Of a DNA stretch of 58,063 nt, positions 39,936-58,063 are shown piece by piece (the first letter of the stretch is position 1; each line of letters starts with the position of its first letter). Source of the stretch: Verrucomicrobiota bacterium. GTDB taxonomy: Bacteria > Verrucomicrobiota > Verrucomicrobiia > Opitutales > UBA2995. Made by a program: the position numbers and the translations under genes. Below the pieces are notes generated by a model, which had not been told where the DNA came from, ran no database searches, and saw nothing but the letters and a program-made list of their open reading frames with translations. Location of the stretch: assembly GCA_027622555.1 (NCBI GenBank), contig JAQBYJ010000029.1, forward strand, positions 1-58,063, given 5' to 3'.

Positions 39936-40263
39936 TCGTTCGATTTTGCAGGTTTTTCTAAATGGAAAGAACTGAAGTGATGATCGTATCCTTCTGAACG
40001 CGGCCCCAGGATCTCTTTTATTTCTCGTGAGGCGAATCAGTTGCACGCCGGACGAACTGCTGGTCTGGTGGGAAAGCTACCGGAAACTGGCGAAGGTGGC
40101 GTGATATTAGGCAAATTGGCTGCTTCTCGTGTTTAAATGCTATACTGAGTTGCAGCGAATGTCGCCAAACAGAGGTGTAAATTTCCGCTGAATTTTCGAT
40201 TTTTGATCGACGTTTGCTTTCATCCGTCCGATACGCATTCAAGGTAGCTAATAATAGTTAATT
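39936..40263. other. 328-bp gap with no supportable gene
   Basis: Neither strand has an ORF with recognisable coding character; the longest are about 70 codons and not protein-like. No intrinsic terminator, tRNA or known riboswitch was seen. It presumably holds the promoter of the downstream small membrane protein gene. Confidence 0.5.
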
Positions 40264-40560
40264 ATGAATCGCACGATTGAGTCTCTACAGCTTTGGTTTT
40301 CACAAAATGCCTCGGCAGAGAATGTTTCAACGTTTGGTATCATTATTGTTGGGATATTCTTGGTTTTCAGTATCTACAAGATGCTAAAATCGTTCCATAT
40401 TTCCATGGTGATTTTCGTCCTTGGACTTTTGTGGACCGGGTTATTCTTATACTGGGTACATAACAGAAATGAGCCTGATTTTATGACACCGGCTGTTGAA
40501 GCTGTCGCTGGTTTCTTGCCCAAAAAAGGTGAGTTAAGAGAGATTCCTACACCTCAATAA
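40264..40560 (+). CDS. Small two-helix membrane protein, hypothetical
   Basis: A 98-residue protein with two predicted transmembrane segments (about 22-41 and 45-66) separated by a short basic turn, an N-terminal polar region and a C-terminal tail (PAVEAVAGFLPKK). No family recognised. The start ATG follows TAATT without a Shine-Dalgarno. The coding look (clean helices, plausible composition) supports a real gene. Flanked by the 328-bp gap and a 238-bp gap, so likely monocistronic. Confidence 0.6.
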   Translation: MNRTIESLQLWFSQNASAENVSTFGIIIVGIFLVFSIYKMLKSFHISMVIFVLGLLWTGLFLYWVHNRNEPDFMTPAVEAVAGFLPKKGELREIPTPQ

Positions 40561-40798: not shown

Positions 40799-42640
40799 TC
40801 AACTTTTTTTAAGACTGATTGTCGGTCTCTCAGTGGAGGTATTTATCTCTGAGTTTCTGGAATGCTCCGTAGATGCAGTCGTATCCACTTTTCTTGGTTC
40901 TTTCCCTATGGATCTCGACCGCATAAGGCGCGATGCAAGTTGGGCTTTTATCTCTTCGGTTGATAGTTGCCTGGGGCTTGCTTGATTACCATCGTCTGAA
41001 TTAGCAGTAGCGGTTGAATTTTCCGGTGTCGACAGGTGATCTTTTCGAGCAAGACGATTTCTTATAACGTCTTTCTGTTCTTCTGAAATAGGTTGTGATG
41101 GGATGGGTTTTCTCGTCGCAACCGGTTTTAGTACAGGACTTGGCGTTTCTTCGATTTGGACATGCGCCTCGACAGATTCTTTGTCTCCGGCCTTAGTCTT
41201 TGTCGATTTCATAACGACTTTCCGTCGGGGTAATGACATGATCGGCGATGGAACATTCGCATCTACTGTATTCATTGGAATGGTTCGCATGGAATTTTCG
41301 CCATCGAGTCCAAGGTCTTCCCCGTTTTCGGATTCAGCTAGTTCCCCTTCTACTTTTTCTTCAGCCTTACTCTTTTTGTTTTTTCCTAAAGAGAGTCGGT
41401 CCACGCGCTTCAACGAGGCGATAAGTGCTGAAGTAAAACATACGATTGTGATGGCCGCTGTTGTCAAATAATTGGACGAATCGACAGGTGCTTCGCTCAA
41501 AAGTATTTGGAAACCTGCTATTCCTGCAAAGGCCGCATACGCGCCCAAAGACCATAGTCGGCTTTGGGGAAATTTGAAAGTGGGTCTAACCACCAGCATA
41601 GTCACCAATAATGAAGCAAAGGCGACAAAAGTGGTGGCTTCCATCAGTATTGATTGAACTTCAATTAGAACCGAGCTCAGAAAAGCCACCAGTAATACAG
41701 AACCGAAGAAATTGAATAGACCAAGGCTGAGAAATAGAGCACTATCGTACTTGGCAGTAGGGCAGGGTGACGGAACTTTTACTTTGGCAACTCGCTCTGT
41801 CTTTTTCTTTTTTGACCCAGATTTCAATTTACTGAGGAACGACTTTTTTACTGGCCTGGGTTTCTCGGCTATAATGACAGAATTTGATTTCGGCTTTTCC
41901 TCGGGTTGAGTCGTTGATGGAGTGGGTTCCGAGGAGTCATCGTAGACGACATAGTTAAAATTTTCCTTTGCCGCAATTTTTGTCCGGGACTCACTTGGCT
42001 TGGCCGGTTCGGGATGGGTTTTGTGTGCATCCTGATTTTCCTCCTCAAAGGCTACCCTTTTTTCTGTATTTTCCAAAGTCTTCTTTGCCTGGGTTGTCGC
42101 TGGCTTTGGGATCTCAAGATAAGATTTTGGAACACTAACCCAAATGCAGTATGATTCCCTGCTAATGGTGTTTTTGATAAACAAGTAGTTTATCAAAGAT
42201 TCGAGTTCCAAGGTATCCAGAGCTTTTTGAATACTTCCGAGGAAAGGGAGGGCGAATCCTTTCTGATCCTCCATTTCCTGGTGAGATAGGCGTTTCTCTG
42301 CAAGATGCCGTTTAACGTCCTCGTATTGGTCGGGGTGTACTATCAGGTGTACCGTTATCGGCGTTTTGAGGTCTTTTTTTGGGTCTTCATAGATTTCTTT
42401 ATTTATAAAGCAAATAGCTACATGGACGCCAAGTAGTCCGAGTTCACTTGTGAATCGTTGAAGAAAATCGGTTGGGTTTAGTTGAACGTAGTTCCATTGA
42501 GCGCGTGCTGTCGGAGGTAGTTGTTCTTTTTCATCAAAGCTATCCAGAGTGCCTGGAACGAAAGGCAATGACTCCAACTGCTTCGGAGTTAGCTCCGAAA
42601 GCTGAATGCATTGGTCTGAACTGTTCATATGGTTACTCAT
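40799..42640 (-). CDS. Large uncharacterised membrane protein with disordered flanks
   Basis: A 613-residue protein. Residues 1-180 form a soluble N-terminal domain of unrecognised fold (LSELTPKQLESLPFVPGTLDSF, then TVHLIVHPDQYEDVKRHL). Residues 180-295 are Lys/Glu/Pro/Ser-rich. Four hydrophobic helices lie at about 300-322, 328-350, 362-382 and 390-412. The C-terminal 200 residues are again polar and low-complexity. Its start lies only 4 bases after the stop of the 700-residue gene, so the two are co-transcribed. Function unknown. Confidence 0.72.
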   Translation of the reverse strand: MSNHMNSSDQCIQLSELTPKQLESLPFVPGTLDSFDEKEQLPPTARAQWNYVQLNPTDFLQRFTSELGLLGVHVAICFINKEIYEDPKKDLKTPITVHLIVHPDQYEDVKRHLAEKRLSHQEMEDQKGFALPFLGSIQKALDTLELESLINYLFIKNTISRESYCIWVSVPKSYLEIPKPATTQAKKTLENTEKRVAFEEENQDAHKTHPEPAKPSESRTKIAAKENFNYVVYDDSSEPTPSTTQPEEKPKSNSVIIAEKPRPVKKSFLSKLKSGSKKKKTERVAKVKVPSPCPTAKYDSALFLSLGLFNFFGSVLLVAFLSSVLIEVQSILMEATTFVAFASLLVTMLVVRPTFKFPQSRLWSLGAYAAFAGIAGFQILLSEAPVDSSNYLTTAAITIVCFTSALIASLKRVDRLSLGKNKKSKAEEKVEGELAESENGEDLGLDGENSMRTIPMNTVDANVPSPIMSLPRRKVVMKSTKTKAGDKESVEAHVQIEETPSPVLKPVATRKPIPSQPISEEQKDVIRNRLARKDHLSTPENSTATANSDDGNQASPRQLSTEEIKAQLASRLMRSRSIGKEPRKVDTTASTEHSRNSEINTSTERPTISLKKS

Positions 42641-42644
42641 TAAA

Positions 42645-44747
42645 TCAGGATTTGCTTGGCGGTGCGGCCTTTCTTAATGCGAAGAATCCGGTGTTAGCGA
42701 CCATAATGATGAACAGCCAGGATCCGGCAGCTACCCATGGCGCTTCCGGTCTGTTTAACAGTCCAGAAGTTTCTTCAATTTGAAACGCTTTAGCAGCCGT
42801 CACGCGTTGTCTGGCAATTTCTAATTTACGTTCTTTCTCGGCTGCTGCTTTTTCTTGAATGGCCAACCAATAGGCTGGGTCTTGAACCTCTTCCAATCTT
42901 GCGATTATTGCCTTTTGCCACAGTCCAAGGGCATCGATATCCAAAAGCCAGTTGCTGGCAATGGACTCTTTGATATTTGAGCTTCTAGCTGCTATGGAGG
43001 CAGTATCGATGGTAATTGGCTCTAATCCTCCAGGATTGAGCTTAAAGCATTGATCCAAAGGAAAATCAAAGACCATCAGTTTGCTCGCTGAAACGGGAGG
43101 ATCTGACTCGAGATAGTTAATTCTGTTTAATGGTGCAGGAAGAAAATTGGAGTAGGTATATATTTGGGAGGATAAGAAATCCACCAGTGCTGGGTTCTGG
43201 GTTTCACTTACTAATATTTTCGAACGTAATATCTGTTTTCTTAGAATGTCTTGATTGCGTTCGTGCGCCGCCTGTCCATTGACATCGTTAAACGCTTTTT
43301 CCCAATACCAGAAATAACATTCATACTGCGCAGGAAAAAGGCTCCTTTGGGGGTTTTGCTGTAAGGACAGACCTAAGGTCCCAGCTTTTAACTCCAAGCT
43401 CATCAAAGATCGAAGCAGGGCATGAACATCTGCATTTTCTGACGGGGCTACCTCTTTAACAATTGCAGCCAAAGTCTTTAAGTTTTCGAGCGCACTCCAT
43501 TCGCTTTCGGATCTTACTTTAGCCGGTATTTCAAATTTTAAGAGTTCTTCGTAGAGAGAGTCACCAGGGCTTAAATCATTTTTAATGGTTTCATCCCTCC
43601 ACATTTGCATGAACCCTCTCGGCGTAGTGAGTTGTATGTTTTTGTCTTCGACTCCGTACTCGCCGTCTTTTGCCGCCAGGTAGTGACCTGCGTAGCCTTT
43701 TCTTACCGCAATAATTTCACCTGGAGAGAGGAAGTGGAAATTTGGGTAGAATTCGACAGATGTATTCTCAGTGATTTCAAGAAAGCGATTTTTGCCCCCT
43801 TCCAGTGATGCGACTCTAACCACTTTGCTGTATCCATCAGATCCTTTCTCAAGCTTGAAGTCATTTATCAAAACCGGCCGTTCGAACCCGCGCATCTTCA
43901 CAAAATAGAATGAGTTGTCTTCCGTTTCATGAGTGAATAGAACGGGGACGACCAAGAGTTTCTGTTGATTCACCCAAATTTCTGTTATTACACCTTCTAT
44001 GTCTGTCGCAGGGGCTTTAAGCAAAGTTTGATAGTCGCCTGCAAGAATCGAGGTTTCCACCAAACCAACATGAGTCGGGCTTTCTAGAGAAGGTGCTGCT
44101 TGGTTTTGTAATTTGTGCGATTTCCACGTGCTTGGGTGGCTTTCACGTATTTGAAATGCACTGTAGGATTGTCTTACTTCTGCCAGGGATTCTTCGAGGT
44201 GGTAATCGAATCCGGACTTTACGAGAAATTGAGATTCAGGAACTTCAACAATTTTACTGAATCCCTTTAAGTGATAATCGACGAATAGATTACCTTTTTC
44301 TTTTTTAACCACTTCATAGTATTTGTCGGCCGAGAAAGGAAGATAGCCTTCTGTGAATGACAAATAGGCGGTGTAGGTAACTCCCACCCCTTTGTGTTTT
44401 CTTTCTGCTACTTTGCGATCACGACTTTCCAAGGGCAGTAAAACTAATTTCGGCTTACCACCCAATTGCATCATAACTATGAAACCGTCTTCTGTCTCCA
44501 GGATCGGTTCAAATTGTTCTGAACGAAACAGCGTTGTCTCATATTCATTTTCCAAGGTGTAGATGTAAATGTAATCTTCTTTCGGCTTTGCGTAAGCAGT
44601 TACTTCTTTCCCAAGTCCCGGAATCATTCCTCCGACTAGAAGCAGAAAAAGCACAAGCCCTCTCACCAACCAGCCATTGACCATGGAGGCATTTGGAAAA
44701 ATTTGGGAAGTAGACATTACAGAGGAAAAATTTGTTATGAGAAACAA
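42645..44747 (-). CDS. Large exported envelope protein with C-terminal membrane anchor
   Basis: A 700-residue protein of unrecognised family. A hydrophobic signal/anchor at about residues 28-45 follows several candidate starts (44747, 44717, 44684), so the exact N-terminus is uncertain. The body is mixed alpha/beta with many Glu/Tyr/Phe strands and no cysteine-rich motifs. Residues ~640-665 are Glu/Lys/Arg/Ala-rich, suggesting a coiled coil, and a hydrophobic helix (APWVAAGSWLFIIMVANTGFFAL) ends the protein with a short basic tail. First gene of a two-gene operon with the 613-residue membrane protein. Confidence 0.7.
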   Translation of the reverse strand: MFLITNFSSVMSTSQIFPNASMVNGWLVRGLVLFLLLVGGMIPGLGKEVTAYAKPKEDYIYIYTLENEYETTLFRSEQFEPILETEDGFIVMMQLGGKPKLVLLPLESRDRKVAERKHKGVGVTYTAYLSFTEGYLPFSADKYYEVVKKEKGNLFVDYHLKGFSKIVEVPESQFLVKSGFDYHLEESLAEVRQSYSAFQIRESHPSTWKSHKLQNQAAPSLESPTHVGLVETSILAGDYQTLLKAPATDIEGVITEIWVNQQKLLVVPVLFTHETEDNSFYFVKMRGFERPVLINDFKLEKGSDGYSKVVRVASLEGGKNRFLEITENTSVEFYPNFHFLSPGEIIAVRKGYAGHYLAAKDGEYGVEDKNIQLTTPRGFMQMWRDETIKNDLSPGDSLYEELLKFEIPAKVRSESEWSALENLKTLAAIVKEVAPSENADVHALLRSLMSLELKAGTLGLSLQQNPQRSLFPAQYECYFWYWEKAFNDVNGQAAHERNQDILRKQILRSKILVSETQNPALVDFLSSQIYTYSNFLPAPLNRINYLESDPPVSASKLMVFDFPLDQCFKLNPGGLEPITIDTASIAARSSNIKESIASNWLLDIDALGLWQKAIIARLEEVQDPAYWLAIQEKAAAEKERKLEIARQRVTAAKAFQIEETSGLLNRPEAPWVAAGSWLFIIMVANTGFFALRKAAPPSKS

Positions 44748-45260
44748 ATGATTAGCTTCGAAATTGATAGTTGAGATAGGTGGTTCTAGAAAATGTCTTT
44801 GAAAACTAGTGGAACTACACGAATCTTTGACATGACTTGACCCCGTCTAAGGCTATTTTCACATTTATTTAAAAGCTATCCGCGCCACTGCTCTTAAATA
44901 GGCCTAATCCCTTGGTAACAGTGGTGTTTTCGCCCAGGCTGCATACCTACTAAAATGAATAATTCAGACCTCTCCTTTGAAATTGAGAATATAAGAGTCT
45001 TTCGATTAATTTTTCCAAAAAATTGGAATAGTTGTTTCGCATATTCTAATTCACCTAATAGATATATTTTTACTTTACGTAAATTTCTCCGAAATCCGAG
45101 TTTCATATTGTTCACTATTGGGCCAACATGGATCTTATTTAATTGGGTTGCATTTATTAAAGTGCTTTCATTCTGTAACTCGCTCTTTTTTGGTGGTCTG
45201 TGGAAACAAAGTTTTCAACTGCTTTACCAAGAATAGAGTATACTTAAAACTAATATAATT
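44748..45260. other. AT-rich 513-bp intergenic region
   Basis: The stretch between the divergent envelope-protein gene and the histone-like gene is clearly more AT-rich than its surroundings (roughly a quarter GC in 45001-45120). ORFs of 93 codons (+, 44955-45236) and 73 codons (-) exist, but both are low in complexity and unsupported. A TATACT at 45239-45244 could be a -10 for the downstream gene. It may serve as a binding region for nucleoid proteins. Confidence 0.45.
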
Positions 45261-47562: not shown

Positions 47563-48474
47563 TTAGTTGCTTACCTGGACTGGCACTTGAAGAGGCGAGA
47601 AACCGGGTGTTTCTACATAGAGAACACCAATTCCGGGTGTGCCGCCTTCTAAAGGAACGCTCACAGACTTACTGCCTGAAGGAATCGTCACCTCTGGTAA
47701 AATGATACTATCGGGGATGTTGGTAGTGATATCCACCGGTAATCCGCCCATTGGAGCTTCCGTAGGAATCGTGAAGATCAAGGTGGCCCGGCCTCCAGAT
47801 ACGACGCTCACTGAGGCTGGCAGCACTTGCATCTGAGCCGCATCTACGCGAAATGATCCCACAACGATTTCTCCATTTTCGCCGCGAAGGGTCACATTGT
47901 ATGAACTTCCTGCCGGAAGGCTGGGAACGAAAAAGCTTAACGCATTAGGCGAAAAGAATTCCGAGTTTGCGAGCTGGCCACCTATGTAAACCCTATCGTT
48001 TGGAGAGAAACCTCTTCCATTGAAAGGGATCTTCGCGCCAACGGGTCCTCGATTTGACTCCAGGCTGACAATGTACCGGTTTACCAAAGTAAATTTCAGC
48101 AACCCATCTTTAGGTAGAGTGATAGACTTAACCTTACTCGATTGAGCGGTGTAGACCTCGTACTCGATGTCATAGTAATAAACCGCATTACGGCTGCCTG
48201 ACGGCATCTTATACTCGTAATCCCAAATGTGGTCTCCCAGTGGACTTGGCGTCATCATTCGAGATTCTCCGTCAATTACGACTTTAGGTCTCAATGAGCC
48301 TTTAACCACCCCCATATCCTTCTTTTCACGGACCTCAACGCTCAAGGTGTAAATATTGGATGGGTTCTGCGGAAATTCCGAAGGCGTGAGATTTTTTACT
48401 GACTTGGCGCAGCCAGATAAAAAAAGAACCGCCGCAAATAGGGCGAGGACTGAAAGGTTTGATTTGATTTTCAT
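47563..48474 (-). CDS. Lipoprotein with IPT/TIG-like beta-sandwich
   Basis: A 303-residue exported lipoprotein: the signal ends with LFLSGC (C22 lipidated). The mature protein is beta-rich; residues ~140-205 look like an IPT/TIG immunoglobulin-like domain (VGAKIPFNGRGFSPNDRVYIGGQLANSEFFSPNALSFFVPSL), followed by a second Ig-like region. Such domains mediate extracellular binding. Specific function unknown. Followed by a strong terminator. Confidence 0.75.
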   Translation of the reverse strand: MKIKSNLSVLALFAAVLFLSGCAKSVKNLTPSEFPQNPSNIYTLSVEVREKKDMGVVKGSLRPKVVIDGESRMMTPSPLGDHIWDYEYKMPSGSRNAVYYYDIEYEVYTAQSSKVKSITLPKDGLLKFTLVNRYIVSLESNRGPVGAKIPFNGRGFSPNDRVYIGGQLANSEFFSPNALSFFVPSLPAGSSYNVTLRGENGEIVVGSFRVDAAQMQVLPASVSVVSGGRATLIFTIPTEAPMGGLPVDITTNIPDSIILPEVTIPSGSKSVSVPLEGGTPGIGVLYVETPGFSPLQVPVQVSN

Positions 48475-57588: not shown

Positions 57589-58063
57589 TTATTTTCTTCT
57601 GGTTTGTTTTCTGCGCTCTCGACTCGACCGCGGGGTTTGGTCTGGCTTTACGATTATGCAGTCAGGGCGATATGGATCGTTGCAGTTAAATTCAAGATTT
57701 CCTAGATGCAGGTTGGCATAGTGCAGCTCAGTAATTGCTTTTTCATTTTCAAACAACCCTACATTACAGCCTGCGAAGATCTCACTCATATAGAAGCATT
57801 TGCCTAGATGAGAGATATGTCCCGACCCGCTCACGCGCTTTAGCTCATAACCATCCGGATAGAGCATTTTGTACTTCTCGCCAAGACGCCTGGAACTCTT
57901 GCGGTAAATTTCGGCGGGTCGGAGCATGTCCAGACCCTCATGGGGACGATCATGATTATACTCATATCTCCAGCGTTCGAAACGCTTCTTCTGCGCCGAT
58001 AGATTGCGCGAGGGCGGCTGGGTGGCTTCTGCTTTCAGATCGCGATGCATGCGCTCATGGGAG
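57589..58063 (-). CDS. IS481-type transposase, partial (continues past right edge)
   Basis: The frame is open to the window end and contains the C-terminal part of a DDE integrase core: SHERMHRDLKAEATQPPS, then RFERWRYEYNHDRPHEGLDMLRPAEIYRKS, where the Glu in the SHERMH region is the likely last catalytic acid. A C-terminal beta-rich domain follows (SGSGHISHLGKCFYMSEIF, VGLFENEKAITELHYANLHLG). The visible part is undamaged, so the element may be intact beyond the edge. Confidence 0.8.
   Translation of the reverse strand, partial: SHERMHRDLKAEATQPPSRNLSAQKKRFERWRYEYNHDRPHEGLDMLRPAEIYRKSSRRLGEKYKMLYPDGYELKRVSGSGHISHLGKCFYMSEIFAGCNVGLFENEKAITELHYANLHLGNLEFNCNDPYRPDCIIVKPDQTPRSSRERRKQTRRK

Follow-up and report, generated by a model that had tools for sequence, protein, structure and literature searches.

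Two-part inner-membrane complexes, in which a C-terminally anchored periplasmic protein is accompanied by a multi-helix partner, exist, and bacterial genomes commonly contain large orphan membrane proteins for which there is little explanation. The two adjoining genes considered here, designated P1 and P2, bear likenesses to both. They lie in a stretch of 58,063 nucleotides (hereinafter, the window), which is contig JAQBYJ010000029.1 of assembly GCA_027622555.1, a 6.0-Mb draft genome in 238 contigs of a Verrucomicrobiota bacterium from the order Opitutales. In the coordinates of the window the genes are:

42645..44717, minus strand: P1, exported protein, 690 aa (open frame, start placed by the alignment of its relatives)
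40799..42640, minus strand: P2, 613 aa, membrane core and two arms (open frame, ATG at 42640)

Tentatively, and with a confidence somewhat short of even, we read the pair as a genus-restricted accessory two-gene operon for an inner-membrane complex, with P1 in the periplasm and P2 as a scaffold of the membrane and cytosol.

Distribution, junction and conservation of the pair

Our genome panel consisted of 53 genomes (that of the window and 52 relatives, numbered with the prefix G), and was supplemented with sets of 372 genomes of the order and 387 of the phylum, both of which are samples of larger groups and include the window's own genome. Profile searches found P1 in five of the 53 genomes, in five of the order set and in one of the phylum set, namely the window's own. 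P2 was found in four of the 53 genomes and in four of the eight family genomes covered; in the order set it gave six matches at E 0.01, four of them credible and belonging to the same genus and two weak, and in the phylum set three, the window's own and two weak ones. The weak matches outside the genus, in G072, G323 and G599 (E 0.003-0.007, 15-17 bits), were taken as chance, and that in G599 holds four stops. In a public bacterial genome collection two loci were retrieved, whose contigs are those of G002 and G005; their bins are Verrucomicrobia bacterium KW1-S08_24 and uncultured Opitutales bacterium S4_Bin_Bin_94_1. PMC10367259 names the former (the bin behind locus L065) as a genome of Verrucomicrobiota, its source being deep-sea ferromanganese nodule sediment. 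Three of the eight family genomes covered are without the pair. As judged from these sequence searches, the pair is confined to one Opitutales genus within the genomes searched, and the breadth across Verrucomicrobiota which the original prediction had envisaged was not borne out, nothing credible being found outside this genus in the order and phylum sets.

The separation of the genes by 4 bp, reported at the outset, was confirmed: the P1 stop occupies 42645-42647 and the P2 ATG is at 42640. The junction is readable in four genomes (G000, G002, G004 and G005), and in all of them P1 precedes P2 on the same strand, with anything from a 4-bp overlap to a 4-bp gap, depending on the start chosen in G004; the fifth carrier, G001, has lost the junction. 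Such spacing, from -4 to +4 bp, favours coupled translation, and the two proteins are presumably co-translated. Neither P1 nor P2 occurs intact without its partner in the 53 genomes; independent occurrence, which had been set beforehand as the refuting result, was therefore not seen there, and the tight coupling initially proposed is supported. Several copies are broken: P1 of G002 and P2 of G004 cross contig ends, P1 of G004 is frameshifted, P1 of G005 lies on two contigs and lacks its middle, and P2 of G005 shifts frame near its end. Since these are draft genomes, we do not read the breaks as biology.

Among the relatives, identity is 46-58% for P1 and 39-61% for P2, with dN of 0.30-0.57 and a dS so high that no value could be calculated; these ranges exclude the close pair G001/G005, and for P2 of G004, split in two halves that represent different parts of the protein, the half-versus-half comparison was left out. 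G001 and G005 themselves gave, for P1, dN of 0.060 and dS of 0.507 over 391 codons, so that dN/dS was obtained for P1 and none for P2. Conservation is higher in the flanking proteins, compared by identity alone and likewise outside the G001/G005 pair: 76-82% for the helicase (G002 left out, G003 included) and 78-87% for the lipoprotein. P1 and P2 still retain conservation, from which we conclude that the pair is fast-evolving yet constrained. By these sequence measures P1 and P2 are real genes under purifying selection.

Anatomy of P1 and P2 and the complex they may form

The original prediction described P1 as an exported protein of 700 residues with a C-terminal membrane helix. The export signal and the helix are upheld by hydropathy, and the start has been moved. 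The listed frame, 42645-44747, begins at a TTG, and an ATG follows ten codons downstream, at 44717; because the proteins of the relatives start at the eleventh residue of this frame, where the ATG lies, P1 is taken to be of 690 residues. It begins with a hydrophobic export signal and ends with one hydrophobic helix (residues 672-690 in the 700-aa numbering) and a short tail. The ectodomain of about 600 residues is predicted, by a low-confidence model, to have a strand-rich front, a helical part at approximately 366-535 and a further helix at approximately 594-644 (690-aa numbering). In the 700-aa numbering, conservation peaks at residues 61-180 (68-82% per 20-residue bin) and at 521-560 (78-88% per bin, based on just two other sequences). 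An internal duplication of the front (residues 50-205 against 235-395) was considered and dropped, the profile comparison giving it a probability of 0.5%.

P2 has an N-terminal domain (approximately residues 1-180, 50-87% per 20-residue bin) and a membrane core (approximately 296-415) with lysine/arginine-rich stretches on either side. Four central helices had been proposed for it: three strongly hydrophobic segments were recovered by hydropathy (308-326, 333-351 and 392-410), and the fourth, at about 363-383, falls below the hydropathy threshold yet is a helix in the low-confidence model, which leaves the count of four fair but unproven. The long arms, initially called disordered, are mostly variable, with 20-residue bins of 4-36% identity, and are interrupted by conserved islands. 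Identity is 45-52% at 261-300, and an island of the first arm at 221-240 (FNYV-YDD) reaches 62% versus 19-35% beside it. In the tail, two islands at 519-532 and 562-574 have the sequences SEEQKDVIRNRLAR and EEIKAQLASRLMR; the corresponding bins show 72% (521-540) and 55% (561-580) identity versus 4-36% around both. In G004 and in the protein of the window, the two islands look like repeats of a single short motif; the second one is diverged in G002. A first pattern of this motif matched none of the five aligned rows. A looser pattern, fitted by eye to the sequences after that failure, recovered both copies in two rows, the first and a diverged second copy in one, the first alone in one, and none in the remaining row, which stops before the tail.

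The complex may be pictured as follows. Being exported and C-terminally anchored, P1 would have its ectodomain directed towards the periplasm. P2 would reside in the membrane with both its N- and C-terminus in the cytosol, because its core is flanked on both sides by lysine/arginine-rich stretches. The single helix of P1 might pack against the helical core of P2, and the pair would then relay or scaffold, connecting the periplasmic ectodomain to cytosolic partners that could be recruited by the N-terminal domain of P2 together with the conserved islands of its variable tail. Such a complex would represent an optional envelope function, probably gained in the genus after G003 had branched off and lost again in G001.

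A more specific version, which we consider unlikely, makes the pair an undescribed trans-membrane scaffold: P1, a periplasmic sensor or anchor, would be plugged via its C-terminal helix into a four-helix platform formed by P2, the long disordered tail of P2 would offer two copies of a short motif (E-E-x-K...R-L-x-R) recruiting a cytosolic partner, and a dedicated, conserved promoter element would mark a genus-specific regulon.

Insertion site, upstream block and the G001 deletion

In G003, which belongs to the same genus, and in G006 and G007 from the other genus of the family, a ferredoxin-type/FAD gene adjoins a histone-like gene, and nothing like P1 or P2 lies between them; the helicase, the ABC transporter and the IPT lipoprotein surround this empty site as they do in the window (in G003 across two contigs). 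The carriers have a small membrane protein of 98 aa, P2 and P1 between the ferredoxin-type and histone-like genes. In the window the borders and the additional gene are:

40011..40100, plus strand: 30-aa remnant of the ferredoxin-type/FAD gene (70% identical to the protein in G004)
40264..40560, plus strand: gene of a 98-aa small membrane protein, in convergent orientation to P2
45261..45671, plus strand: histone-like gene, divergent, the other border of the insertion site (named by eye)

Three trees, built from seven, nine and two flanking proteins (the last one without G002), place G003 outside the carriers, with ultrafast bootstrap support of 70, 78 and 68 and FastTree support of 0.99, 1.00 and 0.86, respectively. 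On the basis of these trees, the pair is most simply explained by a single gain after G003.

In G001, whose 4.8-Mb genome is a single contig, approximately the first 377 residues of P1 are fused in frame to the extreme tail of P2, making a 433-aa frame. As the sequence stands, this fusion is a deletion that removed most of both genes, so that the pair is dispensable in this organism.

Two non-coding features precede P1:

44821..44874, minus strand: conserved non-coding block, promoter/operator candidate (five-genome alignment)
44722..44748, minus strand: inverted repeat TTTGTT/AACAAA (imperfect in G004), together with a conserved TCCTC just ahead of the P1 start

Outside the block, the 500 bp or so in front of P1 show little conservation; within it, 22 of 44 columns are invariant in the five genomes, versus 32 of 396 in the part that precedes it and 23 of 90 from its end to the P1 start. 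The bounds of the block were chosen after the alignment was seen. Its pattern is TGTGAAAAT-N20-CATGTCMAA, the core of which has a single exact match in the window (with three mismatches allowed, 0.19 matches are expected) and is found in 16 of the 86 loci compared, all of them copies of this place; as the pattern was drawn from these same sequences, its presence there is not independent. Rfam gave no match at E 1 on the region upstream of P1, folding of this region was no better than that of shuffled sequences (z 0.47), and the five-genome consensus formed just a 6-pair hairpin with no covariation. Since no RNA structure was found, we read the block as a DNA element. Scans for sigma-70 promoters and terminators returned no more than in shuffles. 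The TCCTC at 44722-44726, present in 5/5 genomes, occupies the position expected for a GGAGG-type ribosome site.

These observations bear upon two other explanations. According to the first, P1 and P2 are unrelated fast-evolving orphan envelope proteins which share a promoter, each acting on its own, P1 in the periplasm and P2 in the inner membrane, their adjacency stemming from one insertion. We regard this as rather unlikely, though still deserving serious attention: it agrees with the retention in G001 of an unaccelerated front of P1 (about 377 of 690 aa) without the domain or the membrane core of P2, and with the lack of a recognisable interaction domain in P1 or P2, whereas the joint loss of most of both genes in the G001 deletion, the failure to find either of them intact alone in the 53 genomes, and the near-overlap of the frames, kept despite divergence to 39-61% identity, speak against it. 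The second, that the pair is the decaying leftover of a mobile or phage-derived cassette and now has no function, seems to us very improbable. Lineage-restricted insertion and the G001 deletion would suit such a remnant, as would the disrupted frames of G004 P1 and of the end of G005 P2, which come from drafts and may be assembly errors; purifying selection and the conserved upstream block, on the other hand, speak against it. Moreover, no integrase or transposase was seen among the frames of at least 90 aa around the pair, the repeats around it look like chance (the best flanking pair is 15 nt at 87%), neither protein matched PHROGs, P1 had no match in phage or plasmid records, and P1 and P2 had none in viral contigs.

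Returning to the genus-restricted operon for an inner-membrane complex, several points weigh against it. The physical interaction of P1 with P2 and the function of the pair are what we infer only, and adjacent fast-evolving genes may share transcription without forming a complex. The structure models, which were built for single proteins on alignments of three (P1) and two (P2) sequences, are poor (mean pLDDT 42.6 for P1 and 37.8 for P2), for which reason the topology rests on hydropathy, and hydropathy gives three strongly hydrophobic segments in P2, not four. Of the tail islands, the second is missing in G005, and the helical moments of both are low (0.05-0.26), so that amphipathic binding helices are not favoured. 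The front of P1 in G001 is not accelerated, with 4 G001-specific versus 5 G005-specific changes and 17 unresolved in 377 columns, which means that this front may work without P2, or else that the deletion is recent. As to the history, in a first tree of two flanking proteins FastTree agreed with the placement of G003 outside the carriers (0.73) and IQ-TREE put G003 with G002 at 49%; considering this placement and the broken histone-like gene of G003, a loss in G003 is possible and the gain is uncertain.

As for the surroundings, the ferredoxin-type gene is gone from this site in the window's genome, where the 30-aa remnant is left and no intact copy is present; the FAD/ferredoxin-type membrane oxidoreductase which it encodes elsewhere (about 777 aa) is full-length at the site in G001, G003, G004, G005, G006 and G007. 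The histone-like gene of G003 (870-1192 of locus L063) is split into two overlapping frames and has a lysine-rich tail. The 98-aa protein is found in the same five genomes as P1, at this site in G000, G001, G004 and G005; in G002 its gene stands next to the ferredoxin-type gene, at the end of a contig. Four other genomes of the 53 hold weak relatives of it (E 4e-8 to 3e-4), and the three loci examined are all at unrelated places. Because of these distant relatives elsewhere in the order, it is not specific to the pair and is apparently part of a broader unnamed family within the order. By eye, it has an RNEPxFxTP motif, and its relatives in G019 and G040 sit between moaE-like and 6-phosphogluconate dehydrogenase-like genes, also named by eye; its assignment to DUF2427 was rejected (E 0.0018, 18.5 bits versus the required 23.8). 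The IPT/TIG-domain lipoprotein (47563-48474), an envelope protein, has a far wider spread than the pair, being present in 14/14 genomes of the order tested, with 33-78% identity. Near the contig end, a 153-aa frame (57589-58050) reads, by eye, like the end of an insertion-sequence transposase.

Comparison with known families and systems

Searches of Pfam, NCBIfam, PHROGs, PADLOC and PDB sequences, with curated thresholds applied, returned no family above threshold for P1 or P2, in agreement with the initial statement that no domain is recognised in either. In PHROGs and in PADLOC, the latter a set of anti-phage defence models, neither protein had a match at E 1, and the P1 profile matched no PDB sequence at E 10. 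For the P2 profile the best PDB match was SinR (E 0.16), which was dropped, as the single-sequence search with the N-terminal domain did not return it. A limited literature search turned up no paper on the pair, which does not show that none exists.

Below the thresholds, a recurring hint concerns the N-terminal domain of P2, where Propep_M14 weakly matched residues 96-126 in G000, G002 and G005 (E 0.01-0.16); the assignment was rejected at 12.6-16.4 bits versus the Pfam gathering threshold of 22.1. The first Foldseek rows of the low-confidence P2 model were PII proteins, at E 0.5 and worse. Propep_M14 and PII are both ferredoxin-like folds. The likeness consists in the recurrence of the weak matches at 96-126 and in the position of PII atop the Foldseek rows; the difference is that all matches are below thresholds, the remainder of the N-terminal domain is uncovered and the model is unreliable. 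The middle part of P1 gave DUF6201 (E 0.013) and SH3_6 (E 0.1, 12.6 bits versus a cut-off of 27), and the SH3-type assignment was rejected. Other sub-threshold Pfam rows were CTD4 on the helical part of P1 (E 0.11), DUF7271 on the P1 front of G001 (E 0.13) and NLE on the N-terminal domain of G005 P2 (E 0.017); relatives of P2 also give single weak membrane-protein rows. Blocks of the P1 model within 431-520 have pLDDT of 71-85, and their best structural matches (Z 7.1 and below) are assorted helical repeats and bundles, a common type according to the warning of the tool, so that no fold is claimed. Searched against PDB with Foldseek, neither model had a match at E 0.001.

It is distinctly unlikely, in our estimation, that the pair is a known envelope system (for example, a sensor/transducer or cell-wall binding pair) diverged beyond profile detection. 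Evolution faster than that of the neighbours, evident from the identities given above for P1 and P2 against the helicase and the lipoprotein, would promote such an escape, and the Propep_M14, PII, DUF6201 and SH3_6 hints could be its traces; yet all these hints are under thresholds, PDB offers nothing for the P1 profile at E 10 and E 0.16 or worse for P2, and PHROGs and PADLOC nothing at E 1. No known system was matched in these searches, and the term "undescribed system" would reflect solely the absence of homology.

The locus constitutes a natural experiment: some genomes carry both genes, some relatives have the site empty, and in one genome, a single contig, an in-frame deletion spans the two. 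The pair would thereby allow one to ask what role an envelope function plays when newly acquired, and for what reason it may disappear again.

In comparison with the two-part inner-membrane complexes, the likeness lies in the predicted topology, that is, an exported and anchored P1 and a helical P2 facing the cytosol, and in the adjacency of the genes, whereas no sequence relation or reliable fold relation to them was found and no enzymatic or channel family appeared above threshold. With orphan (taxonomically restricted) genes the pair has in common that no homologue was found outside the genus, that it evolves faster than its neighbours, and that its position is conserved and it is dispensable in a relative. 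It differs from them in that P1 and P2 are large (690 and 613 aa) and form a near-overlapping pair with a conserved upstream block of its own.

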